From: Salisaeta longa DSM 21114
GTDB lineage: Bacteria; Bacteroidota; Rhodothermia; Rhodothermales; Salinibacteraceae
NCBI RefSeq assembly: GCF_000419585.1
Contig: NZ_ATTH01000001.1
Span: 3,077,001 to 3,141,000 of the forward strand
Reading direction: 5' to 3'
DNA: 64,000 nt
Shown here piece after piece: positions 3,680 through 28,995 of this stretch. Position 1 is the first letter of the stretch. The number at the start of each line of letters is the position of its first letter. The notes under the pieces are model-generated. The model saw only the letters and a list, made by a program, of their open reading frames with translations, did no database searches and was not told the DNA's origin. The position numbers were made by a program, and so were the translations under genes.

Positions 3680-4555
3680 GTGGCCCAACGACTCGACGGA
3701 AAAGCCCTCGCCCAAGCCGTACGTACCGATGTTCGTCAGGAGATTACCGCCTGGCGCGACGCCGGACACCGCCCGCCGATGCTCAAGGTCGTGCTCATCG
3801 GCGACCACCCGGCGTCCGCGGCCTACGTGCGGGGGAAGGAAAAGGACGCAGCCGAAGTGGGCATCGATACCGAGACGCTGCGCTACCCCGAAAGCATCGC
3901 CGAGGATGAGCTCCTGGACGTGGTGCAGGCGCTCAACGCCGATGCGGCGGTCGACGGCGTGCTTGTGCAGTTGCCGCTGCCCGACCACATCAACGAGCAG
4001 CGCGTCATTCACGCCATCGACCCGGCCAAAGACGTAGACGGCTTCCATCCCGAAAACATGGGCCGCCTCCTCATTGGCGATCCGGCGTTTATTCCGGCCA
4101 CGCCCTACGGCATCCTGGAGATGCTGAAGCGGTCGGATATTGCCACCGAAGGGCAGCGCGCCGTTATCGTGGGGCGCTCCAACATCGTCGGCAAGCCGAT
4201 GGCCGCGCTCCTCCTGCAGCGCACCGCCAACGCTACCGTCACGGTGTGCCACAGCCGCACGCGTAACCTCAGCGCCCACACGCAAGCCGCCGACATTCTG
4301 GTGGCAGCCGTAGGACGCGCCGGATTCATCACGGCCGACATGGTCAAGGAAGGCGCCGTCGTCATCGACGTGGGCATCAATCGCGTCGACGACCCCTCGC
4401 GCGAGCGCGGGTACCGCCTCGTGGGCGATGTAGACTTCGAGCCGGTGGCAGAGAAAGCCGGGTGGATTACGCCGGTGCCCGGCGGCGTGGGCCTCATGAC
4501 ACGCGCCATGCTGCTGGTAAACACGCTTCACGCTGCCAAACAACATGCCGGATAA
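3680..4555 (+). CDS. folD: Bifunctional methylenetetrahydrofolate dehydrogenase / cyclohydrolase
   Basis: This cytosolic enzyme interconverts 5,10-methylene-THF, 5,10-methenyl-THF and 10-formyl-THF, supplying one-carbon units for purines and formyl-Met. At 291 residues it has the usual FolD length. It shows the substrate motif SAAYVRGKEKDA (Tyr49 and catalytic Lys53), QLPLPDHI, DVDGFHP, the NADP-binding GRSNIVGKPMA stretch, CHSRT and the C-terminal PGGVGLMT signature. The start is a GTG at 3680. The last codons overlap the start of the MscS gene by 11 bases, so the two are probably cotranscribed. Confidence 0.97.
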   Translation: MAQRLDGKALAQAVRTDVRQEITAWRDAGHRPPMLKVVLIGDHPASAAYVRGKEKDAAEVGIDTETLRYPESIAEDELLDVVQALNADAAVDGVLVQLPLPDHINEQRVIHAIDPAKDVDGFHPENMGRLLIGDPAFIPATPYGILEMLKRSDIATEGQRAVIVGRSNIVGKPMAALLLQRTANATVTVCHSRTRNLSAHTQAADILVAAVGRAGFITADMVKEGAVVIDVGINRVDDPSRERGYRLVGDVDFEPVAEKAGWITPVPGGVGLMTRAMLLVNTLHAAKQHAG

Positions 4556-5576
4556 GCCCATGGTGCCCCCCCAAGCCGCCTTGCTTCAGGCGGCCCCCGA
4601 CACCAGCCGCGCGTCCGCACAGCCGTCTACCATGGCTGAAGGGCTGGGAACCATCAACAACACGTTCGGCCGCATCATCAACCTGCTGGCCGAGGGGCGG
4701 TGGAATGAGATGTACGATTTGCTGTATGAGGAAACCGTCAACCTCATCGGCTTATTTCTGCAGAACGGGCTCGAAGCGCTGCTTGCGTTTGTTGTCCTCT
4801 ACGCCATCTACTGGGGCATCGACTCGACCTTGCAGCGGGTCCTGGATCACTCCAAGGGATTGGATAAGGGGCTGGCCAGTTTGCTCCAGCGCAGCTACCG
4901 CGTGGTGGCCATGGTGTTTATTGGCGCAATGGTGCTGGGGCAGCTTGGCGTAAACGTGACGGCGCTCGTGGCCGGTCTTAGCATCGCCGGTATTGCCGTT
5001 GGTTTTGCTGCGCGCGACTCGCTGGAGAACTTTATCTCGGGCGTTACGATCCTTGTCGACGAGCCGTTTAAGGTGGGCGATTACATTCAGGTGGAAGGCG
5101 AGTACGGGCAGGTCAGCGAAATCACGCTGCGTTCGACGCGCATCCGCACGGTGCGCAACGAGATTATGGTGCTGCCCAACACGCAGATGATCACGCAGCC
5201 CGTGGTAAATCACACCAAGCAAAACACCCTGCGCGTTGATATTCCCTTTGGCATTGCGTACGAAGAATTTCCGGACGAGGCCCGCGCGGTGGTGCTGGCG
5301 CTTCCGGCCGACGATGACCGGATTTTGACGCGCCCCGAGCCCACAGTGGTGGTGACGGAGATGGCAGGCTCTAGTGTGAACATGGTCCTGCGCATGTACC
5401 TGCGCGACCCAAGCGAGGAGCTGCCCGTGCGGTGGGCGTACACCGAGAAGGTGCGCGAGGCGCTGCGTGCCGCCGACATCGAGATTCCCTTCCCGCACAT
5501 GCAGCTCTTTCTGGACGAGGCCAAGGGCTTGCACGGCTCTACCCTTTTCCCCGAATCGCCCGATGCGTCGTCTTAG
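4545..5576 (+). CDS. MscS-family small-conductance mechanosensitive channel
   Basis: A 343-residue inner-membrane channel that releases solutes on hypo-osmotic shock. After a polar N-terminal 65 residues, hydrophobic segments lie at about 65-90 and 120-165. The pore-lining TM3 is the Gly/Ala-rich stretch LSIAGIAVGFAARDSLENF, followed by the beta domain (VDEPFKVGDYIQVEGEYG, STRIRTVRNEIMVLPN) and the C-terminal alpha/beta domain. The ATG at 4545 overlaps folD. Its stop codon shares bases with the stop of the convergent enoyl-CoA hydratase gene (5573-5576). Such channels would matter in a halophilic or salt-variable habitat, which is inference. Confidence 0.93.
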   Translation: MPDKPMVPPQAALLQAAPDTSRASAQPSTMAEGLGTINNTFGRIINLLAEGRWNEMYDLLYEETVNLIGLFLQNGLEALLAFVVLYAIYWGIDSTLQRVLDHSKGLDKGLASLLQRSYRVVAMVFIGAMVLGQLGVNVTALVAGLSIAGIAVGFAARDSLENFISGVTILVDEPFKVGDYIQVEGEYGQVSEITLRSTRIRTVRNEIMVLPNTQMITQPVVNHTKQNTLRVDIPFGIAYEEFPDEARAVVLALPADDDRILTRPEPTVVVTEMAGSSVNMVLRMYLRDPSEELPVRWAYTEKVREALRAADIEIPFPHMQLFLDEAKGLHGSTLFPESPDASS

Positions 5577-14424: not shown

Positions 14425-16869
14425 CTAATTGTCCAGGCTAAAGCGGACCCAGACGACCGTTTTGGCCGGTACGGGTTTGCCATCAACCTTGGCAGGGATA
14501 AACTCCGCTTCGCGCACGGCCTCAAGCGCTTCTTCGTCGGCGCCGCCGCCAATGCCGCGTACCACTTGTGCCGAGCGCACCGTGCCATCCGCGTTAACGA
14601 CAGCCTGCACGTACACCTTGCCCTCAATGCCCTGGCGAGCGGCCTGTTGCGGGTACTGAACGTCTTCGTGCAGGGCCGCCAGTCCGCCTTTTACCTTGGG
14701 GGCTTGGTCAACCACGTTGTAGATGCCCTGCTCGCCCTGCATGGCTTCCTTCTGCTGCTTGTTTTGTTGCTGCTTGGCCCGCGCCAACCGCAGCATCTCT
14801 AATTCGCTTCGGCTCTTCTCAAGCTGCTGCGCAGCATAGTCGTCGCCTGGGCGCACCTCCAGCGCGTTCTGGTACATTTCGACAGCCGTTTCAAAGTTGC
14901 CTTGCTGGAACGCGGCATCGGCTTGCGAAATGTACTGATTGTACTGCGCCTGGGCCGCTTGGGACGTTTGGCGGAGGCTGTCGGTGGTGGCTATAGCGGC
15001 TTCCACCTCGGTCGTTTGCTGCACTTCCGCGGCGTTGCGAAAGGCTTCTAGCGCAGCCGCGTAGTTGCCCTGGCGTTGCAGTTGTTGGCCGCGGCTGAAG
15101 TACTCCTGGTACTGGTCCTGCTGTTGGTTTTGCTCGATCTGCTGCTGCAGGTCATTAATGATGCGTTGCAGGTTGGGGTCGTTGGGTTTGTAATTGGCGG
15201 CCTGCTGGAACTTGCTCAGTGCTACGCGCAAGTTCCCCGCTTGCAGCTGCTGGTTGCCTTGCTGCTGAAAGAACGAGGCGATTTGGCCGACGCTTGCTTG
15301 TCCGCCGCCCATGCCGCCAATCTGCTGACGCGCAAGCTCAAGCTGGCGCTGGTCAATCTGCGCACGCATGTCGAGGGCCTGCTGGTTGCCCGGACGAATG
15401 TCGAGGGCGCGGAAGTACGCGGCCATCGCGCGGGAATACAGGCGGTTGGCTTCGCTGTACTGATCGAGCTGAGCGAGTGAGTCGGCCTTGTTCTTCAGGC
15501 GTAAGCCGCGATCCATCTGCTGCTGAAATTGCCGTGCGCTCGATTCTTGTTGCAGCTCGCTGATTTGGTTGAGCCGCTGGATGGTGTATTGGTCCTCGGG
15601 GCGCACATTCAGTGCGTTCTGGTAGTAGGTTTCGGCCTGGTTGTAGTTAGCCTCGGCAAAGAGCGAGTCAGCCGTTTGGCGATACTCCTGGTACGTTTTT
15701 GTGGCCACAGGATTAGAAGCGCCCGGCCCAAGCGTGAAGTACCATGCTCCTCCGCCAGCAGCCAACAGCACCAGGGGCAGAACAATGAACAAGGCGGTGC
15801 GGTTGCGGCGCAGCGTGCCGCGTTTGCCGGTACGCCGGGGCCGCGACGGGCGGTCGGAGTCGCCGGTGGACAGCACCTCAATCTCGCCGGTGGAAGCATC
15901 GTCATCGTCGTCGGCGGGCGCTGCAATGTCGGCTTCAACCGGTATAATCTCGAAGGCCTCCTCGCCTTCGCCGTCGCCCTCGTAGCGCACCGATTCGTCT
16001 TCAAGCGTGCTGCGCAGCTCCTCCACCTCTTGCATGCGCTTCGAGGGATCGACCACGAGCGCCTGGGTGAGGGCATCGCGAACGCCGGGCGAGGAGAACG
16101 ACGCCGCGTCCTCCAAGAGCTCAAGCAGCGGGTCCGCGTCGCCGAGACGGTCTGAAGCCTTCGGCATGTCCTGGCCGGTCACCATCGTGCAGATGGTTGC
16201 AGCGGCCGCGTACACGTCCGTCCACGGGCCCTGGTTGCCGCGCGGGGTGTACTGCTCGATCGCACTCGTACCCGGTTGCACCAAGCTGTTCAACTGACCG
16301 CTCTGGCGGGCAAGCTGAATGAACGAGCCGCGAAAGCCGGTAACCATCGGTTGCCCGCCCTCGCGCAGCCGAATCGTCAGGGGCGATACGCCGCCGTGGT
16401 ACAAGCCGGCTTCGTGCGCGGCCTCCAGCGCCTTTAGCACCGGCACCATGATGGTCAGCGCGGCCTTTTCCGACAGGGCGCCTTTGTCTTCCAGCCCACG
16501 GGCCAGCGACATGCTCGGCTCGTAGGGACGCACCCGGTAGATGGTGCCGTTCGCCTCAAACACGTCGTATGACGATGGCAAAGCTTCGTGCGAGAGCTCC
16601 CCAAGCACCTCCGATTCTTTCTGGAAGTACTCGATCCCCGACTGGTAGAGCGATCCCTCTTTCTCGCCACCGGTTACCTCAACCGACGTCTTTCCCGAGG
16701 CGCGCTCGATAAGGAACGTCGGAAAGTACTCCCGGATGATAACCTGCTCTTCCGTTTCAATGTGCTGTCCCAGGTATTTGATGTCAAACGGCCCAGGATC
16801 GCCCAGCGTACGTTTAATCGTATACTGGTTGTTCAATACCGTGAGCGGAGCCAACTCCATGATCGACAT
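14425..16869 (-). CDS. Membrane pseudokinase - TPR - TonB C-terminal domain fusion
   Basis: An 814-residue protein with an unusual domain order. Residues 1-290 form a bacterial Ser/Thr-kinase-like domain opening YTIKRTLGDPGPFDIKYLG. The usual catalytic residues are missing: the VAIK lysine is Arg46 (VIIREYFP), the HRDLKP loop reads HGGVSP (158-163) and DFG reads GFR (178-180). An acidic linker and an Arg/Lys-rich patch come before one membrane helix (about 358-378). Next are Gln-rich TPR-like repeats (400-690) and a TonB C-terminal-like domain (725-812: HEDVQYPQQAARQGIEGKVY). The orientation implied is a cytoplasmic pseudokinase and a periplasmic TPR/TonB part, joining intracellular sensing to the cell envelope. 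Function unknown. Confidence 0.8.
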   Translation of the reverse strand: MSIMELAPLTVLNNQYTIKRTLGDPGPFDIKYLGQHIETEEQVIIREYFPTFLIERASGKTSVEVTGGEKEGSLYQSGIEYFQKESEVLGELSHEALPSSYDVFEANGTIYRVRPYEPSMSLARGLEDKGALSEKAALTIMVPVLKALEAAHEAGLYHGGVSPLTIRLREGGQPMVTGFRGSFIQLARQSGQLNSLVQPGTSAIEQYTPRGNQGPWTDVYAAAATICTMVTGQDMPKASDRLGDADPLLELLEDAASFSSPGVRDALTQALVVDPSKRMQEVEELRSTLEDESVRYEGDGEGEEAFEIIPVEADIAAPADDDDDASTGEIEVLSTGDSDRPSRPRRTGKRGTLRRNRTALFIVLPLVLLAAGGGAWYFTLGPGASNPVATKTYQEYRQTADSLFAEANYNQAETYYQNALNVRPEDQYTIQRLNQISELQQESSARQFQQQMDRGLRLKNKADSLAQLDQYSEANRLYSRAMAAYFRALDIRPGNQQALDMRAQIDQRQLELARQQIGGMGGGQASVGQIASFFQQQGNQQLQAGNLRVALSKFQQAANYKPNDPNLQRIINDLQQQIEQNQQQDQYQEYFSRGQQLQRQGNYAAALEAFRNAAEVQQTTEVEAAIATTDSLRQTSQAAQAQYNQYISQADAAFQQGNFETAVEMYQNALEVRPGDDYAAQQLEKSRSELEMLRLARAKQQQNKQQKEAMQGEQGIYNVVDQAPKVKGGLAALHEDVQYPQQAARQGIEGKVYVQAVVNADGTVRSAQVVRGIGGGADEEALEAVREAEFIPAKVDGKPVPAKTVVWVRFSLDN

Positions 16870-17205: not shown

Positions 17206-18504
17206 ATGCCGTTGGTTCCGCTTGTCATGATGCCTTGGAAAACCTCGCTGCGGCCCCTCGTAGGAGCCACCGTTTCGCTGTATGTACGTGGTATCTGTTG
17301 GGTTGTGGGGGGCATCCTTTGCCTGCATGCCCTTGGCCTGGCCAGCGGGGCGCAGGCGCAGCCCGCCCGCGAAGGCCGCGTGGTCCTGAACGATTGGCCG
17401 GCGCCCGCGGCGGTTCCGTCAGATCCAGCGGTGCAGCGCCTGCCGGAAGTGGCCGCGCTTGCGCTCGACTACCGCTACCGGGTGCAGCCGGAGGCTTCGG
17501 CGGCGCAGTGGACCTTCACGTGGTCGTGGCAGCCGGGCGACAGCCTGTGGGTGAACGGCCGGCCCGGCCCCGCCGCGCGCTCGGTGCTGCAGGGCTTCCG
17601 CATGACGCAGGTGGAGGTGAAGTACGATGTGCTGGTGGAGGGCCAGCAGGTGGCCGAAATGATTGTGGCGGTCGACAGTTTTCGGCTGGCTCCGCACCCG
17701 GCGCGCTACCGGTTTACGGTGGACGTGTCGGCGTCGCGCGTTTTTCTGGACACGGAGGGCGCAGCGGCCCTGTCGTATCTGAAGGCCGGCGTCACGCTGG
17801 CGCGGCCCACCGTGCTCCGCGTCGGGTTTGTGGAAGCCGGGCGGACGGCCGCTCGCCGCTCCGGGCGTTCCGATCGGGCGTCACGTCAGCAGCCGGTGCC
17901 CACCATCTTTACGCCGCGGATTGGCATTTTCATTGGGTGGCGCGTGGGCCCCGATCCGTACTACGTGGACCGCGACGACGCCGCGGGCCGCGCCGCTCCG
18001 CGCACCACCATGGGCCGAGGCGCCGCCGATGAGGAGCCGCGGGCGTCGGGCGATGATGATGCGGGCGACGACGAGGACGACGTTTCGTTGGGGCCCGCGG
18101 CCACCGTGGCGTTCGCCGCCGTGGGCCTTACCGCCCTGGTGGGCGGTACGGTGGGGTACTACGGCACCGGCGAGGCGCCGCTCGGACTTATGGCGGGCTA
18201 CGTGCAGCCGTCGGGCGGTTTTTTGCTGCAAACGTCAATCAACGCCCGCGTGCTCACGGGCGAGGATCGGCAGCACCTTACGGCACAGATGCTGGGCTTT
18301 GGCAACGTCTTTCGGTCGGTGGTGCAGCCGGCGGTGGGGCTTGGGGTGCACGTGGAAACGCAGGACGATACGTACAGCACGCGGGCTGCCGTGCCGGTGG
18401 GGCTGGTCGTTAACGCGTCGCGCGTCGTGGTTTTTGGCGGCGTTGACCTTGTCGGCGCGACGCCCATGGTGGGGCTCGCCGTCAACCTCCGCAGCGGCCG
18501 CTAA
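17206..18504 (+). CDS. Hypothetical exported protein
   Basis: A 432-residue protein whose N-terminus has a long lead followed by a hydrophobic segment and a likely signal-peptidase site (CLHALGLASGAQAQ), so it is probably secreted to the periplasm or outer membrane. In-frame ATGs at 17227 and 17230 are possible later starts. The middle holds beta-rich sequence (WTFTWSWQPGDSLWVNGRPG), then an acidic Asp/Glu stretch near 280-300, a hydrophobic Gly-rich segment (VAFAAVGLTALVGGTVGYYG) and a C-terminal part with alternating hydrophobic strands that might form membrane beta strands. I do not recognise the family. It faces the pseudokinase gene across a shared promoter region. Confidence 0.6.
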   Translation: MPLVPLVMMPWKTSLRPLVGATVSLYVRGICWVVGGILCLHALGLASGAQAQPAREGRVVLNDWPAPAAVPSDPAVQRLPEVAALALDYRYRVQPEASAAQWTFTWSWQPGDSLWVNGRPGPAARSVLQGFRMTQVEVKYDVLVEGQQVAEMIVAVDSFRLAPHPARYRFTVDVSASRVFLDTEGAAALSYLKAGVTLARPTVLRVGFVEAGRTAARRSGRSDRASRQQPVPTIFTPRIGIFIGWRVGPDPYYVDRDDAAGRAAPRTTMGRGAADEEPRASGDDDAGDDEDDVSLGPAATVAFAAVGLTALVGGTVGYYGTGEAPLGLMAGYVQPSGGFLLQTSINARVLTGEDRQHLTAQMLGFGNVFRSVVQPAVGLGVHVETQDDTYSTRAAVPVGLVVNASRVVVFGGVDLVGATPMVGLAVNLRSGR

Positions 18505-18969: not shown

Positions 18970-19176
18970 GATGTCTCAAAGTTGTTGATTGAAATCACGC
19001 GGTTGCGTACTACCCATTGCGCCAGAATGACGCCTGCGTTTGTGTCATCACCCCTTTCATACGGAACGAATACAAAACAGTTCGCTTCCACGTGATGACC
19101 TTCGTACTATTGACAGTCTGCGCCTATTTTTTCGTAGCCTGTCATCTTCTGTTCATCGAACCGTGTGCAAGGCCGT

Positions 19177-19737
19177 ATGGCTGACGCTGCTTCTCCGTTT
19201 GACCCCGATCGCGTGCGCCGCGCCCAGGATGGCGATGACCGGGCGCGCTCGGTGCTCCTCGATGCGCTGCAACCCATCTTGAAGGGCTACTTCATTAAGC
19301 GCATTGGGAAAACGCCCGACGTGGACGACCTGATCCAAAACACGCTGCTGCGGGTGCACAACGGCATCGAAGACATCAACAAGCCGGGCAGCTTTAAGGC
19401 GTTTGCGATGAAGGCGGCGCTTTTTGAGCTGCAAGATTACTACCGGGGCCGCTACGACATGAAAGAGCGGCTGTACGATCCGGAGTTGCCGCTCGACCGC
19501 ACCACGGCCCCCGATGATGGAAGCGCCCGCGTGGATGTGGAGCGCGCCATGGAGCTTCTCTCGCCGAAGGCCCAGCGCATTTTGGAGCTGCGTGAGTACG
19601 GGTACAAATACCGGGAGATTGCCCAGATGATTGACACCACCGAGGCGGCGATTAAGATGCAGGTGAAGCGGGCGTTCGACAAGCTCCGCGATGCCTTAGC
19701 GGGGCTGTTGCTCTTTGTATTGCTTGGGGGTGCATAG
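19177..19737 (+). CDS. ECF-type RNA polymerase sigma factor
   Basis: A 186-residue sigma-70 family factor with only regions 2 and 4. I use the ATG at 19177 (MADAASPFDPDR); a GTG twelve bases earlier is less likely. Region 2 contains TPDVDDLIQNTLLRVHNGIE, including the DDLIQ core contact. Region 4 contains LSPKAQRILELREYGYKYRE and the recognition helix IAQMIDTTEAAIKMQVKRA. It is followed 123 bases later by a FecR-like anti-sigma factor, the classic arrangement in which a surface signal frees the sigma factor to transcribe transport genes. The nearby TonB-dependent receptor genes are natural targets, though this is inferred from position only. Confidence 0.9.
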   Translation: MADAASPFDPDRVRRAQDGDDRARSVLLDALQPILKGYFIKRIGKTPDVDDLIQNTLLRVHNGIEDINKPGSFKAFAMKAALFELQDYYRGRYDMKERLYDPELPLDRTTAPDDGSARVDVERAMELLSPKAQRILELREYGYKYREIAQMIDTTEAAIKMQVKRAFDKLRDALAGLLLFVLLGGA

Positions 19738-19860
19738 CATAGGCGACAGGTGTGTTACTTATCCTGAACATCATGCGGCTTCCCTATGCAGACCTACAGA
19801 TGAACCCCCCGACCGTCGAGCGTATCGACGCGAACGGCCTTCTGATTGACCAATTGAGCA

Positions 19861-21039
19861 ATGGATCCTTTGTACGAAACGCTACTTTTTCACGACGCCC
19901 TCTCGCCGGAGGCCCAAGACGAGCTGCGCGAGCGCTTGGCTGCGGATGACGCCCTTGCGCAGGCATTCGTTGCGTGGCGCGCGGCCCGCGAGCGCATCGC
20001 GACGCAGTTTAATGACGACCTCCCCGACCGCTCGCTGCTGGTGCTGTATGCCCTCGACGCGGCCGGGCAGGGCGATCTGCTGAGCGAAGCAGAGCGCGGC
20101 GCGTTGGCCGACGCCCGCCCCACGATTGAAGCGGCCCTCGCGGCGCATCCCGCCCTGCATGACGTCGTGCGCGACATCCGCAGCGCGTGCGCCGACTTCG
20201 AAGAAATGTGGGCTACGCATGCCGCGAATGCTCCCGATCGGGCGAACGGCCAAGCGCCCGCTCGCGATGGTGTGCGCGCCGGGCGTGCGCCCATCGCCCG
20301 CAACGAAACGTCGGCCAACCGGCGCCTGCTTGTGCGCTGGGGCACCGGTGTGGCGATGCTGGTGGTGCTGTTCGCCGTGCTGTATGTGGCACCGTGGGAA
20401 CCCGATACCACCACCGTGCGCGTGGCCGAGGGCGCACAAGAAATGGTGACGCTTGCCGATGGATCGACGGTGCGCCTGCAAGGGGCTGCGATGCTGGAGT
20501 ATGTGCCGGGCGACGGCTTCGATCGGGCCGTTACCCTGTCGGCCGGACAAGCCTTCTTTGACGTGAAAGAGGGCCGCACCGCATTTACCGTTACCACCCC
20601 CACGGCGCAAACCACGGTGCTGGGCACCCAGTTTGCGGTGACGGCCGAAGAGCGCCGCACCGAGGTCATTCTGGCAACGGGCCGCGTGCGCCTGAAGGCA
20701 CGTACGGGAGGCCCCAACAGCGCCGTCACCTTACAGCCGGGGCAGCGCAGCGTGGTGGCACGCGGCAGCGAGCCGGTGCCCCCCGAGCGCGTCAACATTA
20801 ACGACGCATTGGCATGGACGGGGCTCTTCATCTTCCAGGATGCGCCGCTGGCTACCATCGCCCAGCAGCTGTCGCAGCACTACAAGATGCCAATTGCGGT
20901 GCACCCGAAGCTGCAGTCCGAAACGGTAACGGGCACCTTCAGCCGGTCGCAGCCCGCACAGGAGGTGCTGCAGGCGTTGGCACAGTCGTTGAGCGCGCAG
21001 CTTCTGCTCGAAAACAATCGCGCCACGATTCGGCCCTAA
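19861..21039 (+). CDS. FecR-like anti-sigma factor with C-terminal STN-like domain
   Basis: A 392-residue single-pass inner-membrane protein. The cytosolic N-terminal 155 residues would bind the sigma factor. A helix at about 161-177 (GTGVAMLVVLFAVLYVA) spans the membrane. The periplasmic FecR domain (about 184-285) has EMVTLADGSTVRLQGAAML and VTTPTAQTTVLGTQFAV. The last 65 residues (FQDAPLATIAQQLSQHYKMP) resemble the STN/DUF4974 domain found at the end of Bacteroidota FecR proteins, which contacts TonB-dependent transducers. The N-terminal part is longer than in most FecR proteins. It probably controls the preceding ECF sigma factor. Confidence 0.92.
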   Translation: MDPLYETLLFHDALSPEAQDELRERLAADDALAQAFVAWRAARERIATQFNDDLPDRSLLVLYALDAAGQGDLLSEAERGALADARPTIEAALAAHPALHDVVRDIRSACADFEEMWATHAANAPDRANGQAPARDGVRAGRAPIARNETSANRRLLVRWGTGVAMLVVLFAVLYVAPWEPDTTTVRVAEGAQEMVTLADGSTVRLQGAAMLEYVPGDGFDRAVTLSAGQAFFDVKEGRTAFTVTTPTAQTTVLGTQFAVTAEERRTEVILATGRVRLKARTGGPNSAVTLQPGQRSVVARGSEPVPPERVNINDALAWTGLFIFQDAPLATIAQQLSQHYKMPIAVHPKLQSETVTGTFSRSQPAQEVLQALAQSLSAQLLLENNRATIRP

Positions 21040-21217
21040 GCGCAGTTGCCCAACGCACTGTTCAGATGGCGCCTGCGTCTGCTCAAAGGCGCGGGCGCTG
21101 TTTGTTGCACTCGGTGTGTTGATTCCGTGGCAACAGCCCGCCCTGCTGGAACGAACAAGCGCCTCCGTTCTACAGGTCTATCTGCTTCGTCCCTTTTCCT
21201 GACGCCCTGTTGCCTCC

Positions 21218-22435
21218 GTGGGAACTCCTCGCGCACAGCAGACATCGCCGTACCTCATCTTGCTGGCTCTGTGGCTCATGATGTTTTCCACGAGCAGCCA
21301 GCTCATCATCATGGTTCCCATCTTGCCGGAGATTGGTGCAACGCTGGGCGTCAATCAGTTCTGGCGGGGCATGCTGCTGACGTCGTACGCCGTGGCGCTT
21401 GCCGGCTCGGCCTTGCTCGTGGGGCCCGCGTCCGATCGGATCGGGCGCCGCCGCGTGCTGCTTCTGGGCACCGGGCTCATGACGGTAACGCTCGCGCTGC
21501 ACACCGTGGCGGCCGACTACGAGCTGCTGCTCATCATGCGTATTCTGGCGGGCATCGGGGGCGGAATGCTCAGCGGGGGGTCGGTGGCGTACATCGGCGA
21601 CTATTTTCCCTACGAGCAGCGGGGGTGGGCCAACGGCTGGGTGATGAGCGGCACGGCCCTGGGCCAAGTGGCCGGCGTGCCGTTGGGGAAAGTACTTGCC
21701 ACGGCATTTGGCTACCGATGGCCGTTTTTAGGGTTTGCCCTTACCATGGCCGGGGCCACCGTGCTCATTTGGCGCTACGTGCCCTCGCCCGAGGCCGACC
21801 TCGATCCCGAGCGCGTCACCTTCCGGCGCGGCATCCGCAAGTACCGGCGCGTACTCAACGACGCCACAGCCCGCGCCGCTGTCGGCAGCTACGTGCTCAT
21901 GTTCTTTGGCTTTGGCTTGCTAACCACCTTCTTGCCCACCTGGCTCGAAACCTCGATCGGCCTGTCGAGCTACGAGGTGGCGCTGCTGTTTGCCATTGGC
22001 GGGCTGGGCAACATCCTGGCCGCGCCCTCGGCCGGGCGCCTGTCGGACACCATCGGACGCAAGCCCATCATCGTGTGGACGAGCGCCTTGCTTGGGGTGA
22101 TCATGCTCGTCACCCCGTACATGGTTAGCGGCTTTTATAGCGTGGCGGTGCTGTTCTTCGGCGCGATGGCGACGGTGGGCATGCGCATCGGCCCCTTGCA
22201 ATCGTTGCTCACGGCGCTCGTCCCCGACCGGCAGCGGGGGCTGCTGATGGGTCTCGCCGTGGGGGCCGGTCAGGGGGGCTTTGGGTTTGGAAGCTTTGTC
22301 GCAGGGCTTACCTTCGGCCCGCTGGGATACGTAAGCAACGCCATCGGGGCCGCCTGTTCAGCCTTCGCCATGGCCCTCCTGGTGCAACAGCGGCTGCCTG
22401 AGCCCGCCATGGATCAGGCCGCCTCGCGGGCGTAA
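21218..22435 (+). CDS. MFS family transporter
   Basis: A 405-residue major-facilitator protein with 12 predicted helices. After helix 2 comes the family motif A, GPASDRIGRRRVLLLG, and a partial repeat of it, GRLSDTIGRKPIIV, lies at the middle of the second half. The GTG at 21218 gives a short polar start before the first helix. It is probably a proton-coupled efflux pump or an uptake system for a small molecule. Its position after the ECF/FecR genes and before the receptor region is suggestive, but the substrate is not known. Confidence 0.9.
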   Translation: MGTPRAQQTSPYLILLALWLMMFSTSSQLIIMVPILPEIGATLGVNQFWRGMLLTSYAVALAGSALLVGPASDRIGRRRVLLLGTGLMTVTLALHTVAADYELLLIMRILAGIGGGMLSGGSVAYIGDYFPYEQRGWANGWVMSGTALGQVAGVPLGKVLATAFGYRWPFLGFALTMAGATVLIWRYVPSPEADLDPERVTFRRGIRKYRRVLNDATARAAVGSYVLMFFGFGLLTTFLPTWLETSIGLSSYEVALLFAIGGLGNILAAPSAGRLSDTIGRKPIIVWTSALLGVIMLVTPYMVSGFYSVAVLFFGAMATVGMRIGPLQSLLTALVPDRQRGLLMGLAVGAGQGGFGFGSFVAGLTFGPLGYVSNAIGAACSAFAMALLVQQRLPEPAMDQAASRA

Positions 22436-22455
22436 GCGCGCACTTCAGACACAGC

Positions 22456-23934
22456 CTATTCGAGAAGTTGGAGCCCAGGGTATGCCGTGCCGCCCGTTCC
22501 AATGAACGTCCACCCCGCCGCCCAATCCTTGGAGCCAAACGCGCCAACGTAGTTCACGTCGCGGAAAAAGCCGCTGGGCTCTTCAATGCCCGGAAGCGAC
22601 GTGGCCGGGCCGGTGGCTCGCAGGTTGAGGCTGGTAAGCTGCCCGTAGCTGTTGCGCGAGAGGTTTTGATACGGCGGCTGCGTTGCGACCGTGTTGTTGC
22701 GCTGCAAATAGGCCGCAAGCGAATCGCCCAGGGTGCCTTGGTTGCCCACCAGGCCACGCATTGCACTGCCGGTGCCCGCGGAAAACGCACCGCCCGCTTC
22801 ATGAAAGAGGTTGCCCGCAATCCGGATCGTCCCTTGCCTAAATCGCGCCCAGCTGTCGCCCGATCGCGTCGTGGGAACGTCCTCAATCCGCACCACGGTT
22901 TCCGGAAAGCTCGCCACAATCGAGTTGTACAGCGAGCCCGCAAAGTTATCCCGGAAGAACAGCGCGGTGCCGCCGGCCCCGTCAAGCCCCGAGCCAATCA
23001 GGGTTGCGTTGAAGATGATGGGGGTAGCATACGGCTTGCGATCCTCGCCGCCAAACGAGGCATCGCCGCCGTCCATTTCTGCGGCCCGATCGGCCGAGAC
23101 GCTGCCCTGCAGGACGAGCCAGAATTGCCCACGGCCGCGGTAGCCCTGGTCCATATCCAGTGCGTCGTCTTCAGCAAACGCCGATACGAGATAGCGCACA
23201 TCCACCGTGCCGCCAAACCACTCGACCCCGTCGTCGCGGCTTTTGTAGGTTTCAACGTACTCGATGGTCGTGCCCTGTCCCACGCCGGCAAGGGTAAGGC
23301 CGTTGTACTCCGGTGTGGTGCTCTCATTGGGGTTGCCAGACGACGTGCCGCCGTAGCGGATGGAGACGTACCGCAGGATGCCGGAGCTGTCGTCCGGGTT
23401 TTGGCCGCCGTAGACGCTGCGCGGCTCGCCCACGGATAGAAGCTCGACGTTCAGCACGTTCGGATAGGTGTTCAGCGGGGCGCGCCCAAGCAGCACCACC
23501 CCACCCCATCCGCCGCGGAAGGTGGACGGCAGGTCGTCGGTCGTGGTGAGGTCGTCTTTCGTCGTGGTAAAGATGATGGGCTGCTCGGCCGTTCCGCGCG
23601 CAAAAATCTGCCCACCCTGTGCGACGATGAGGGCACTCGGCGGCCGCGTATCGGTGGCGGGGCGTCCTTTAACAACGGTGCCGGGCTCAATCATCAAGAG
23701 CTGGCCCTCGTTGACGAACACATGCCCGTCAAGAATCCAGGTGTAATCGCTCGTCCACGTAACCGATGAGGCACTCGATCCCTTCGGCGAGATGCCTGCA
23801 CCCGCTGCCTCGGTTACGATGACGGCCGGGGTACCGTTTACGCGGGTGGTGTCGTAGACCGTTTGGGCGCGCACCGTTGCCGGGGCAACGCACAGTATCA
23901 ACAGGAGCAACGACCAGCAGTAGCGACGGGTCAT
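22456..23934 (-). CDS. Secreted protein, beta-helix-like family (paralogue 1)
   Basis: I choose the ATG at 23934 because it starts a clean signal peptide (MTRRYCWSLLLLILCVAPA), giving 492 residues; the open frame upstream is low-quality sequence. Recognisable family blocks are TWILDGHVFVNEGQLLMIEP, GTVVKGRP, PIIFTTTKDDL, FRGGWGGVVLLGRAPLNTYP, LRYVSIRYGGTS and DGVEWFGGTVDVRYLVSAF. The same blocks recur in the 24156 and 29160 genes. The short hydrophobic repeats with Gly turns suggest a right-handed beta-helix or solenoid, which is inference. It is probably at the outer membrane or secreted; no catalytic residues are known to me. Confidence 0.75.
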   Translation of the reverse strand: MTRRYCWSLLLLILCVAPATVRAQTVYDTTRVNGTPAVIVTEAAGAGISPKGSSASSVTWTSDYTWILDGHVFVNEGQLLMIEPGTVVKGRPATDTRPPSALIVAQGGQIFARGTAEQPIIFTTTKDDLTTTDDLPSTFRGGWGGVVLLGRAPLNTYPNVLNVELLSVGEPRSVYGGQNPDDSSGILRYVSIRYGGTSSGNPNESTTPEYNGLTLAGVGQGTTIEYVETYKSRDDGVEWFGGTVDVRYLVSAFAEDDALDMDQGYRGRGQFWLVLQGSVSADRAAEMDGGDASFGGEDRKPYATPIIFNATLIGSGLDGAGGTALFFRDNFAGSLYNSIVASFPETVVRIEDVPTTRSGDSWARFRQGTIRIAGNLFHEAGGAFSAGTGSAMRGLVGNQGTLGDSLAAYLQRNNTVATQPPYQNLSRNSYGQLTSLNLRATGPATSLPGIEEPSGFFRDVNYVGAFGSKDWAAGWTFIGTGGTAYPGLQLLE

Positions 23935-24155
23935 AAAACGAAGGGCTTGGTAGAACGGAAGCGGTTGCGGCATTTGCCAATTACATAACACTTCCGTAAT
24001 CAAAGAGTGCGCCAGGTGCGCCGGTGCCCGTGCTTTTGATACGATCTTGAGATGAGAGGTGTAAAAAAGAAAAGCCTGCGCCCCGCATTCGTGCCTCCTC
24101 AGAAGGCGTGCATCCAGAAGGCACAGGCATATGCCCAAACAGCGTGTATTGTCTC

Positions 24156-25670
24156 TCAGCGTGTGGTGCTGGTCGTGGTGCCGTCGTTTGAAGACTGAAG
24201 GAGCTCCAGCCCCGGATACTGCGCGCCGCCTTGTCCGATGTACGTCCAAGACAGGGCCCAATTCCGTTCGCCAAACGCGCCAATAAAATCTACATCCTTG
24301 AAGAAGGTAGCGGGCTCTTGCAGACCGGGAAATGTGCGCGCTGCGTTGGTCGCCGTTGGGTCGAGCGCGGTGAGGGTGCCGTACGTGTCGCGGCCGATGG
24401 TGCGGAGCGGCGCGGCTTCGGGGATACGGTTGTGGCGTGCCAGGTACTTCGTTAGCCGACGCCGGAGCGGCCCATCATTTTCAACAAGGCCTTCAACAGC
24501 GCTGCCCGATCCAGCCATCATGGTACCGCCAATGGCATAAAACAGATTTCCTTTCAGCTGCAGCGTGCCCTCAGCGAACCGCGTTTGGCTGTCGGCCGCG
24601 CCGGGTTTGTCTTCAATCCAGAGGGCCTCTTCGGGAAAGCTGGCGATGATCGAGTTGTAGAAAGCGCCCGCAAAGTTGTCGCGCATGTAGAGCGCCGTGC
24701 TGCCCTTTCCGGCAAGGCCCGAGCCGATGATGGTGGCGTTGTAGATGATGGGCGTCGCGTAGGGCCGGCGGTCTTCGCCCCCAAAATCGGCATCACCGCC
24801 GTCCAGCTCAAAGGCCCGATCCGCATAGATGCTGTTTTGCAGCGCCAGCCAGAACTGGCCGCGGCCGCGATAGCCCTGATCCATGTCGAACGAATCGTCG
24901 GTGGCGAACGCAGCCACGAGGTACTTGGCATTCACGGTGCCGCCAAACCACTCAAAGTTGTCGTCATTGTTGTTGTAGACCTCCACATATTCGATGGTTG
25001 TGCGGCGGCCCACCCCGGCAAGGGTGAGGCCATTGAACTCGGCCGTTTTGCTCTCGTCGGCGCTGCCGGCCGAGGTGCCGCCGTAGCGGATGGAGACGTA
25101 GCGCAGCACGCCGGAGTTGTCGTTGGGCCGTGATCCGCCGTAAATGCTGCGCCGGTCGTTGAGCGAAATGACCTCGGTATTCAGCACGGTGGGGTACGTG
25201 TTGAGCGGTGCCCGTCCCAAGATCACCAGGCCGCCCCACCCGCCGCGGAAGTTGGGCGGTAGGTCGTCGGTGCGCGAGAGGTCGTCCTTCAGGGCCGTGA
25301 AGATGATGGGGCGCTGGGCGGTGCCACGCGCAAACAATTGCCCGCCCTGGGCCACCACCAGCGCACTCGCGGGGCGCGCGCCCTTGCCGGGGCGGCCTTT
25401 AATCACCGTACCGGGGGCGATGGTGAGCTGCTGCCCGTCGTTGACGAAGACCAGGCCGTCGAGCACCCACAGGTAGTCGCTCGACCACGTGATGGCCTGC
25501 TGCCCCGGGCGGGCGGCAATGCCAGCCTGGTCCCGTTCCGTAACCACCACGGCCGGTTGCCCCTGCACGGTCGTCGTATCATAAACGGTTTGAGCGCGGG
25601 CGGGCTGCGCAAGCGTGCACAGCAGCAGGGCAACAAACAGCAAGCGCAGCACGGATACAGGAAAACACAT
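24156..25670 (-). CDS. Secreted protein, beta-helix-like family (paralogue 2)
   Basis: A 504-residue close paralogue of the 22456 protein. The ATG at 25670 opens a signal peptide (MCFPVSVLRLLFVALLLC, ending near PARAQ). The mature sequence begins TVYDTTTVQGQPAVVVTE, parallel to TVYDTTRVNGTPAVIVTE in its neighbour, and keeps WVLDGLVFVNDGQQLTIAP, RGGWGGLVILGRAPLNTYP and NFEWFGGTVNAKYLVAAF. The final residues are Ser/Thr-rich. The gap of 221 bases between the two genes and their high similarity suggest a tandem duplication. It is transcribed away from the TonB-dependent receptor gene, with which it shares a promoter region. Confidence 0.75.
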   Translation of the reverse strand: MCFPVSVLRLLFVALLLCTLAQPARAQTVYDTTTVQGQPAVVVTERDQAGIAARPGQQAITWSSDYLWVLDGLVFVNDGQQLTIAPGTVIKGRPGKGARPASALVVAQGGQLFARGTAQRPIIFTALKDDLSRTDDLPPNFRGGWGGLVILGRAPLNTYPTVLNTEVISLNDRRSIYGGSRPNDNSGVLRYVSIRYGGTSAGSADESKTAEFNGLTLAGVGRRTTIEYVEVYNNNDDNFEWFGGTVNAKYLVAAFATDDSFDMDQGYRGRGQFWLALQNSIYADRAFELDGGDADFGGEDRRPYATPIIYNATIIGSGLAGKGSTALYMRDNFAGAFYNSIIASFPEEALWIEDKPGAADSQTRFAEGTLQLKGNLFYAIGGTMMAGSGSAVEGLVENDGPLRRRLTKYLARHNRIPEAAPLRTIGRDTYGTLTALDPTATNAARTFPGLQEPATFFKDVDFIGAFGERNWALSWTYIGQGGAQYPGLELLQSSNDGTTTSTTR

Positions 25671-26088
25671 AGCAGAGCAGGTAGGAGAACAACAGACCGA
25701 CGCGTGGTGGGGCAACGCAACGTTGCAGCGCCGCACCTACCACAATATGCGCCTCGTCAACCGTCGCATCCAGCGCTGTGCGTGAGCACAGGATAAAGCT
25801 CCGGTTATCGTTCTGTAACCCAATCGCACCGCCCCACGCAATTCTGCACAGCCGCATGAGGACACAGCGTTTTAGCACGGTGAATCGGTAAACATAGCGT
25901 GACCACGATGTAAAGGAAACCAGAATATGGCGTGGCTAACACAAGCGTAATACCCCGATAATCTAGGGGTAACGGTGCAGCCCTACCTTTGTAACCGCAG
26001 AATAGTGCCGCCCTACGGTGTCGTGATAATCGCCGCCGAGGTCATGCAGGCACAAATCGGTTATGATTGTGGAATTGAAGGCCAGAGC
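25671..26088. other. Divergent promoter region
   Basis: This 418-base stretch between the divergent 24156 gene and the TonB-dependent receptor gene contains no believable gene. It holds the inverted repeat TACCCC...GGGGTA at 25951-25971 and a -7-like motif at 25984-25991, listed separately. The sequence is more AT-rich than the genes on each side. Confidence 0.5.
25984..25991 (+). promoter_or_regulatory. Possible Bacteroidota-type -7 element
   Basis: TACCTTTG fits the TAnnTTTG -7 consensus known for Bacteroidota housekeeping promoters and lies about 100 bases before the receptor start at 26089. No clear -33 TTTG is found at the usual distance, so the call rests on one half of the promoter. 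Confidence 0.35.
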
Positions 26089-28995
26089 ATGTTTACCTCC
26101 TTATCCCGTGCCTTCTGGTGCACGGTGTTTGCAGTTTTCTTCGTGGCCGTATCGGCCCCCGCGGCGCACGCGCAAGATACGGGCGCCATGGCCGGGGTAG
26201 TCGTCGATAGCGAGACCGGCGACCCGATGCCCGGCACCAACGTGGCGGTTGTGGGCACCTCTACCGGCACCTCTACCGACCTCAACGGCCGCTACAAGCT
26301 CACGGGGCTGGCGCCTGGACAATACGACCTCGTGTTTTCCTTCATCGGCTACCAGCAGAAAACGGTAACCGGCGTAGAGGTTAACGCCGGTGAGACGACA
26401 ACGCTCGATATTGCCCTCAGCTCAGAGACGAAGCAGCTGGAGCAGGTAACCGTGACGGCGGCCGTGGCCCAAAACACCGAGGCAGGGTTGCTCCGCGAGC
26501 GGCAAAAATCGGCGGCCATGAGCAACGCCATCAGCGCCGAGGCCATCGGTCAGACGGGCGCAGGAAGCGCCGCCGACGCCATGAAGAAGGTGACCGGCGC
26601 CTCCGTCGTTGGCGGAAAGTACGTGGTGGTGCGCGGACTGGGCGGGCGCTATTCCAATACGCAGCTCAACGGCGTCGATCTCCCCAGCTCGGATCCCGAG
26701 ACCAATTCGGTGCAGTTCGACCTCTTTCCAGCGGGCATGCTCAAAAATGTGACCACCATAAAAACGTTTACGCCCGATCGGCCCGGCAACTTCAGCGGTG
26801 GGCTCGTGAATATTGCCACGAAGGATTTTCCCACCGAGCTCAACGTCAAGTTCTCCACGTCGGTAAAGGTGAATCCGCAGGTGCACTTCACCGATGACTT
26901 TGTGAAGTACCCGGGGGGCTCGCTCGACTGGCTCGGGTACGGCAGCGGCGATCGCGCAATGCCCGGTGTGCTTGCGGGCTTGGCGCCCAACCAAATTCCG
27001 GACGGGCCGGCCTTTGTAAACGGCAGCGGCGAAGCTGCGCAGTACGATGCCATCTCGAAGGCCTTTAACAACACCATGGGCCCCAGCGCGGGCTACGCGC
27101 CGGTTGACATGGGCTACTCGTTTACGGCGGGCAACCAGCTCGGGCTGTTTGGCCGCGACCTCGGATACGTCTTCAGCCTCTCGTACGATCGTTCGTCGTC
27201 GTACTACGATGCCGGACGTACCGGGCGCTATACCATTGTGAGCCGATCGGGCGAGAAGGCGTTGGACGACATCATTGCTCTGGACGACGAACAGGGCACC
27301 AGCGAAGCCACGGTGGGTGCCCTGGCGAACGTATCCTACAAGGTGACCTCCAACCACGAGTTTGGGGTCAACCTGTTTTACACCAACACCGGAACCTCTA
27401 CCACGCGCTTTCAGCGGGGCACGTGGACGGAGATTGGCGCTCAAGACCAGCTCGTCAACCGCACGCTCTTGTACAACGAGCGGAGCGTCTTTTCCACGCA
27501 GGTGCGCGGCAAGAGCTACTTCCCATCGCTCAACGATGCGCTGATCGAGTGGCAGGCAGCGCGCGCGAAAACCACGCAGGAAGACCCCGATCGGCGCTTC
27601 TTCGCCTCGGTAGATCGCGCCGGTCCCGGCGGGCATGAAGCCTTCAACCAGGGGCTGCGTGAGCCGTCGCGTATTTTCCGCAACATGGACGAGACCAAGT
27701 ACTCGGCCCAGCTCGACGTTGCCGTGCCGTTTACGCTGCTTACGCGCAAGTCGGAGATCAAGGCCGGAGGCGCCTACAGCACCAGCGACCGATTCTTTGG
27801 CGAGCGCGGCTTTTCCTTCAACCGGCCCGACCCGCAGGCCAACCTCCAGTTTAACGGAGACGCTGCGTCCTACTTCTCCGACCCCAACCAGGGCCTTGTG
27901 GGCACCGATGCCAACGGCAATCCCATTTGGGGCCTGACGATCAACGACCAGACGTCGCCCTTCAGCGACTATACCGGCGACCGCACCATTCAGGCGGGCT
28001 ACGCAATGGTCGACCTGCAACTGACCGACGCGCTGCGCTTCATTGGCGGCGCGCGCCTGGAGACGACGGAGATCACCGTGCAAGCGACGCCCGACAGCAT
28101 CGGGCAGATTGACACCGAGGACATCCTGCCGTCCCTCAACCTTGTGTACGCGCTGCGCGAGGATATGAACTTGCGTGCAGCGGCTACGCGCACGCTGGCG
28201 CGTCCCACGTTTCGGGAAATTGCGCCGTATCCTAGCTTCAGCTTCATTCAGGGCGAAATTCGCATTGGCAACCCCAGCCTGCGACGCACCCTCATCACCA
28301 ACCTGGATCTGCGGTGGGAGTGGTTCCGGCGCCCTGGCGAGGTGCTGGCCTTCAGCGTCTACTATAAGGACATGGACCAGCCGATTGAGAAGGCATTTAT
28401 TGGGAGCTCGTCAAACACCGGCTCGCAGCTCACTTGGAAGAATGTGGAGCAGGCCGAGGTGTACGGAGCCGAGGTCGAGGCCCGCACGCGTCTCGATTAC
28501 ATCCACGCCGCGCTCGACCACTTCACGTTTGGCGCCAACGCGTCATTTACCGAATCACAGATTTCCGTACCCTGTCTCGAATTCGCTCCCAACGGCACAA
28601 CGTGCCTCCGTGGCGAGCTGGCATTCCGGCAGGCCAACAATCAGCCCGGCACGCGCGATTTGCAGGGCCAGTCGCCGTTCCTGGTGAATCTCGACCTGAG
28701 CTATGACAACCCGCAAACCGGGACGTCGGGCGGGCTGTTTTTCAACATCTTTGGCGAGCGCCTCGCGGTTGTTTCCGCCGGTACAACCCCCGACGTGTAC
28801 GAACAGCCGCGCCCGCAGCTCGACTTCACCTTCTCGCAGCGCTTGCTGGATAGCTGGTCGGTGAGCTTCGAAGCGTCGAACCTGCTGAATAGTGCCTACG
28901 AACAGACGTATTCCTTCAACAACCGGTCGGTGGTGTACCAGCGCTACCAGGCCGGGCGCAGCTTTTCGCTGGGCTTTACCTACGAACCGTACTAA
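26089..28995 (+). CDS. TonB-dependent receptor with carboxypeptidase-like N-terminal domain
   Basis: A 968-residue outer-membrane active transporter. The ATG at 26089 opens a signal peptide (MFTSLSRAFWCTVFAVFFVA) ending near AHAQ; the open frame before it lacks one. Next come a CarboxypepD_reg-like domain (about 32-112: AGVVVDSETGDPMPGTNV), the plug (KYVVVRGLGGRYSNTQLNGV) and a long beta-barrel ending in SFSLGFTYEPY, with the aromatic terminal residue needed for barrel assembly. A 12-base unit, GGCACCTCTACC, is repeated in tandem near 26254-26277. With the ECF/FecR pair and related secreted proteins nearby, it probably imports one specific nutrient; which one is unknown. Confidence 0.92.
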   Translation: MFTSLSRAFWCTVFAVFFVAVSAPAAHAQDTGAMAGVVVDSETGDPMPGTNVAVVGTSTGTSTDLNGRYKLTGLAPGQYDLVFSFIGYQQKTVTGVEVNAGETTTLDIALSSETKQLEQVTVTAAVAQNTEAGLLRERQKSAAMSNAISAEAIGQTGAGSAADAMKKVTGASVVGGKYVVVRGLGGRYSNTQLNGVDLPSSDPETNSVQFDLFPAGMLKNVTTIKTFTPDRPGNFSGGLVNIATKDFPTELNVKFSTSVKVNPQVHFTDDFVKYPGGSLDWLGYGSGDRAMPGVLAGLAPNQIPDGPAFVNGSGEAAQYDAISKAFNNTMGPSAGYAPVDMGYSFTAGNQLGLFGRDLGYVFSLSYDRSSSYYDAGRTGRYTIVSRSGEKALDDIIALDDEQGTSEATVGALANVSYKVTSNHEFGVNLFYTNTGTSTTRFQRGTWTEIGAQDQLVNRTLLYNERSVFSTQVRGKSYFPSLNDALIEWQAARAKTTQEDPDRRFFASVDRAGPGGHEAFNQGLREPSRIFRNMDETKYSAQLDVAVPFTLLTRKSEIKAGGAYSTSDRFFGERGFSFNRPDPQANLQFNGDAASYFSDPNQGLVGTDANGNPIWGLTINDQTSPFSDYTGDRTIQAGYAMVDLQLTDALRFIGGARLETTEITVQATPDSIGQIDTEDILPSLNLVYALREDMNLRAAATRTLARPTFREIAPYPSFSFIQGEIRIGNPSLRRTLITNLDLRWEWFRRPGEVLAFSVYYKDMDQPIEKAFIGSSSNTGSQLTWKNVEQAEVYGAEVEARTRLDYIHAALDHFTFGANASFTESQISVPCLEFAPNGTTCLRGELAFRQANNQPGTRDLQGQSPFLVNLDLSYDNPQTGTSGGLFFNIFGERLAVVSAGTTPDVYEQPRPQLDFTFSQRLLDSWSVSFEASNLLNSAYEQTYSFNNRSVVYQRYQAGRSFSLGFTYEPY

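Follow-up and report, generated by a model that had tools for sequence, protein, structure and literature searches.

The described systems that come closest to the gene in this report share different parts of it. EssB/YukC, from the type VII secretion systems of Firmicutes, has a cytosolic pseudokinase that lacks all three catalytic motifs, with Arg in place of Lys; behind it come a single membrane helix and an extracytoplasmic part. Its role is scaffolding (PMC12599244). The MviN/ActPs3 pseudokinases are also bacterial membrane proteins, whose dead Hanks domain works non-catalytically, but they are actinobacterial, have an activation-loop deletion, and carry other motifs and domains (PMC12599244). 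The type VI secretion kinase PpkA (PDB ID 5hnv) has the nearest solved kinase fold. The C-terminal end resembles that of the TonB energy transducers (PF03544, TIGR01352), in which the TonB_C domain is only the binding end and energy enters through an N-terminal helix that touches ExbB/ExbD by way of an SHLS motif (PMC12204202).

The gene discussed here lies in the window, i.e., the whole stretch of 64,000 nucleotides of Salisaeta longa DNA that was analyzed. It encodes a pseudokinase, one membrane helix, TPR repeats, and a TonB_C domain in a single chain. All of these parts are known, but their combination and its conserved gene place appear to be undescribed. The literature searched holds no report of a pseudokinase-TPR-TonB_C architecture, as had been supposed at the outset, and a review from 2025 on the pseudokinase families of bacteria (ActPs1-3, GLW, CP1, DYD, and DLHK, compared by description only) mentions neither TonB nor TPR. 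The features, all on the (-) strand, are as follows.

14425..16869 (-), whole gene, 814 amino acids plus stop, from the ORF call; orthologues are 47-53% identical over the full length
15976..16869 (-), predicted cytosolic pseudokinase domain, residues 1-298, from Pfam Pkinase, the PpkA match, and the model
16732..16734 (-), Arg46, replacing the ATP-binding Lys; Arg in 22 of 26 family members
16390..16398 (-), HGG (158-160), replacing HRD; Asp lost in 26 of 26
16330..16338 (-), GFR (178-180), replacing DFG; Gly lost in 26 of 26, Phe kept in 25 of 26
15793..15975 (-), linker, residues 299-359, acidic and then Arg-rich; modeled with low confidence (pLDDT about 32-70)
15730..15792 (-), single transmembrane helix, residues 360-380, LFIVLPLVLLAAGGGAWYFTL; mean hydropathy 1.99, without any charged residue or His
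14740..15693 (-), predicted periplasmic TPR rod, residues 393-710, from Pfam TPR families, models, and TPR structure matches
14428..14727 (-), TonB C-terminal domain, residues 715-814, from Pfam, TIGR01352, and TonB structures

The true start of the 814-residue ORF is likely Met4, three codons inside the end listed above, as orthologues start MELAPLTVLN. The kinase part is recognized by Pfam Pkinase at residues 80-280 (1.1e-8; 35.3 bits against a cut-off of 31.7), and its closest match among solved structures is PpkA (E 1.3e-29, residues 13-291). The AlphaFold model of the full chain has a mean pLDDT of 88, rising to about 95 in the kinase part; confidence is low from about 300 to 390, a region containing the membrane helix. 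The modeled kinase part fits PpkA with Z 31.2 and rmsd 2.9 over 282 residues. Several TPR families in Pfam match the protein above their cut-offs, and a second model, of residues 385-814 (pLDDT 91.8), fits TPR proteins. The C-terminal domain is over both curated cut-offs for TonB, with Pfam TonB_C at residues 737-812 (1.3e-18) and TIGR01352 at 56.1 bits against 27.1, and its model fits the Neisseria TonB C-terminus with Z 10.4 and rmsd 2.4 over 82 residues. Nine of the 25 residues preceding the membrane helix are Arg or Lys, and this Arg-rich side would place the kinase part inside the cell. The original prediction of one chain that crosses the membrane from a kinase-like domain into TPR repeats and a TonB_C domain is borne out by the Pfam matches and by the models of all three parts, with a single membrane crossing and a genuine TonB_C domain. 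Matches to the defence-system models PD-T4-6 and MADS6 were rejected as generic kinase matches (MADS6 scored 63.9 bits against a cut-off of 460).

That prediction had also read the Lys, HRD, and DFG positions as all replaced within a retained fold, and a fourth replacement can be added, that of the catalytic-loop Asn by Thr165. We compared 26 related domains having the same loss with 162 domains having an HRD-like motif. The catalytic-loop Asn and the DFG Gly are each present in 162/162 of the HRD-like domains and in 0/26 of the pseudokinase domains, and the Lys is present in 160/162 and 2/26, respectively. The HRD Asp occurs in 0/26 pseudokinase homologues, although it is no independent evidence, since the two sets were split by it; the DFG Asp is kept in 3/26. 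PpkA, in contrast, keeps its Lys and HRD/DFG-type residues in the alignment (HRD aligned as HLD/HRDIS). The pseudokinase domains do retain residues that maintain the kinase fold, namely Glu85, His158, Glu205, Asp218, and Arg278 (26/26) and Phe179 (25/26). The domain has the two-lobed fold of a Hanks-type Ser/Thr kinase of the PpkA kind without its Lys, HRD Asp, Asn, or DFG Asp. With the fold kept, the catalytic motifs lost, and selection acting on it, the N-terminal domain is, judged by its motifs, a genuine and catalytically dead pseudokinase.

A tree of 56 kinase domains places all 26 pseudokinase domains in one group (support 100/100), which reaches across three families of the order. Pairwise dN/dS was calculated for three close pairs, wider pairs being left out because their synonymous distances are near saturation, and gave omega values of 0.029-0.031 for the pseudokinase domain, 0.038-0.075 for the TPR part, and 0.015-0.069 for TonB_C. 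These values point to purifying selection acting strongly on the pseudokinase domain. The loss of every catalytic motif is what one would expect of a former kinase decaying without present function, but an omega of about 0.03, invariant structural residues, and a single clade over three families make this reading so improbable that we give it almost no weight; on the same sequence evidence, the motif loss is neither chance nor decay.

Selection of this strength might also be expected if the domain had altered its chemistry, such as to AMP transfer or glutamylation, reusing Arg46 together with Glu47 and Glu85, both of which are invariant across the 26 pseudokinase domains. SelO and SidJ are kinase folds with degraded motifs that do so, but both retain the Lys (PMC12599244). 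In the present family none of the 26 domains has the metal-binding Asn, and 23 of them lack the DFG Asp, with varied replacements, so that altered catalysis seems to us quite unlikely.

A pseudokinase, one membrane helix, and TonB_C are found in one frame in 22 ORFs from 18 genomes (families f1, f7, and f9), so the layout sought in other genomes is conserved. Of the remaining four pseudokinases, three stop at a contig end and one, L047, has a DUF5689-like periplasmic domain instead. In the same collection, TonB_C occurs in just one of 30 intact kinases. This distant relative, L097 (3629-5305), has a short, Pro-rich spacer of 54 residues before TonB_C and is apparently a separate origin of the kinase-TonB_C fusion; since it lies outside the pseudokinase clade and its spacer is short, its intact kinase does not overturn the finding. 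A query of the whole genome collection with the single protein gave no match. An alignment query, taken as the best 80 loci ranked by kinase likeness, gave five Rhodothermia-type fusions, all of them also found in the genome searches; TonB_C was present in 0/131 intact kinase ORFs at these loci, and no TonB_C fusion from other phyla was among them, although such a cut and ranking could miss rarer fusions elsewhere. Among 394 genomes sampled from the phylum, nothing outside the order matched at E 1e-60. In genus g8, of the same family, 9 of the 13 species sampled lack the gene, which is therefore dispensable there. We note that another relative, L057 (6112-8877), has an intact PpkA-like kinase, a membrane helix, and a long repetitive part outside that resembles a parallel beta-helix.

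Many of the 22 ORFs share one ancestral location, next to an Lnb-type gene. The common order in relatives is RelA, HU, RuvX, DUF72, HIT, PHP, RibH, the pseudokinase-TonB_C gene, Lnb (convergent), Nth, and iPGM. These neighbors are housekeeping genes, with Lnb tail-to-tail and no obvious operon with the pseudokinase gene. In the window genome, Lnb and Nth lie elsewhere with no copy of the pseudokinase gene at their place, and the window copy therefore sits at a different one. At the ancestral place, family f2 has a gene for a protein with a disordered-looking N-terminus, a membrane helix, PEGA repeats, TPR, and TonB_C, and no kinase. The TM-PEGA-TPR-TonB_C proteins (L087, L088, and L090) share the place beside Lnb, Nth, and iPGM and have a related TPR-TonB_C end, but they lack the kinase domain and PEGA repeats replace most of their TPRs. 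A tree of the C-terminal part puts the PEGA form inside the kinase-bearing forms if L097 is the outgroup, which suggests that it arose by loss of the kinase, although the root is unsure. Between the membrane and TonB_C, most members have a spacer of 316-359 residues; two have 283-284, three paralogues have 221-254, and the PEGA form at the same place has 361-381. The kept length would fit a part that has to reach a set distance.

The presence of a genuine TonB_C domain raises the question of motor coupling, and it had been proposed that the protein connects a cytosolic sensor directly with outer-membrane energy transfer. We find no support for this part of the prediction. The membrane helix lies some 360 residues into the chain rather than at the N-terminus. 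It contains neither charged residues nor His, lacks a polar motif common to the members, and is poorly conserved across the family; unlike a TonB energy transducer, the protein has a large cytosolic domain and neither an N-terminal motor helix nor a Pro-rich spacer. An SHLS-type motif is absent from the helix in all 22 members, but it is also absent from the Pro-rich TonB-type proteins of the same genome, so the missing motif alone is a weak argument. Nor is the Pro-rich spacer, here replaced by the TPR rod, a strict mark of TonB, since TolA has a helical spacer. The genome also has TonB_C on lipoprotein-like ORFs without a motor helix (G000:C1:2958701-2959534 and 2733503-2733739), which points to use of the domain with no motor. 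A force transducer, in which the helix couples to the ExbB/ExbD motor, TonB_C pulls a receptor plug, and the pseudokinase is a cytosolic brake or selector, would have its TonB_C domain and three ExbD genes in the genome to draw on. With a helix so different from the N-terminal SHLS helix of TonB (PMC12204202), and with TonB_C lipoproteins and Pro-rich TonB-type proteins in the same genome, we consider it very unlikely.

We favor instead a non-catalytic bridge, because the helix has no recognized motor motif and TonB_C occurs on lipoproteins of the same genome. The protein would be a conserved, catalytically dead, single-pass inner-membrane protein that joins cytosol and outer membrane with no ExbB/ExbD proton-motive-force drive of its own, a reading to which we give about an even chance. 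The pseudokinase would dock a cytosolic partner or act on it as a conformational switch, by analogy with EssB/YukC, the nearest working precedent for such a bridge (PMC12599244). The TPR rod is long enough that it could span the periplasm, and it may bind another protein; TonB_C would bind a partner in the outer membrane, for which a TonB-dependent receptor or a comparable beta-strand donor is the most plausible candidate. The bridge might then relay a binding state or hold an envelope complex together. The analogy to EssB has its limits, as EssB lacks TonB_C, the Salisaeta protein has a diderm host and a TPR rod, and the neighbors in relatives are RelA, HU, RuvX, RibH, Lnb, Nth, and iPGM rather than type VII secretion genes. 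If the bridge is real, TonB_C can serve a cytosolic regulator simply as its contact with the outer membrane, which would bring one more family to the few transmembrane pseudokinases known from bacteria and give a direct handle on how diderms of the Bacteroidota group could link the state of the outer membrane to the cytosol.

What the cytosolic end might act on is a further question. Pseudokinases often act on active relatives, and five strongly scoring protein kinases are encoded elsewhere in the genome, so the domain might pair with an intact Hanks kinase and report the envelope state to it; yet a close, PpkA-like intact relative was not found in the Salisaeta genome and no kinase gene was seen adjoining the pseudokinase gene, which leaves this pairing unlikely. 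A somewhat less doubtful, still tentative possibility is that TonB_C reads the occupancy of an outer-membrane receptor and that the TPR rod and helix pass this on to the dead kinase, which would switch a cytosolic partner independently of sigma/FecR relays and of ExbB/ExbD.

The window gene neighbors gave no functional link, and the conserved context of the relatives is absent within the window. At 17206-18504 and divergent from the pseudokinase gene is a gene for a 432-residue protein without a Pfam match. A group of genes at 19165-28995, which are 2-9 kb from the pseudokinase gene and whose adjacency is not conserved in relatives, includes an ECF sigma factor (19165), a FecR-type anti-sigma factor (19861), an MFS transporter (21218), and a TonB-dependent receptor with a carboxypeptidase-like domain (25975). 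Two relatives have a second pseudokinase copy (L047, 8533-10314, and L046, 6865-7929), and the folD and MscS-type genes near these copies match window positions 3680-5573.
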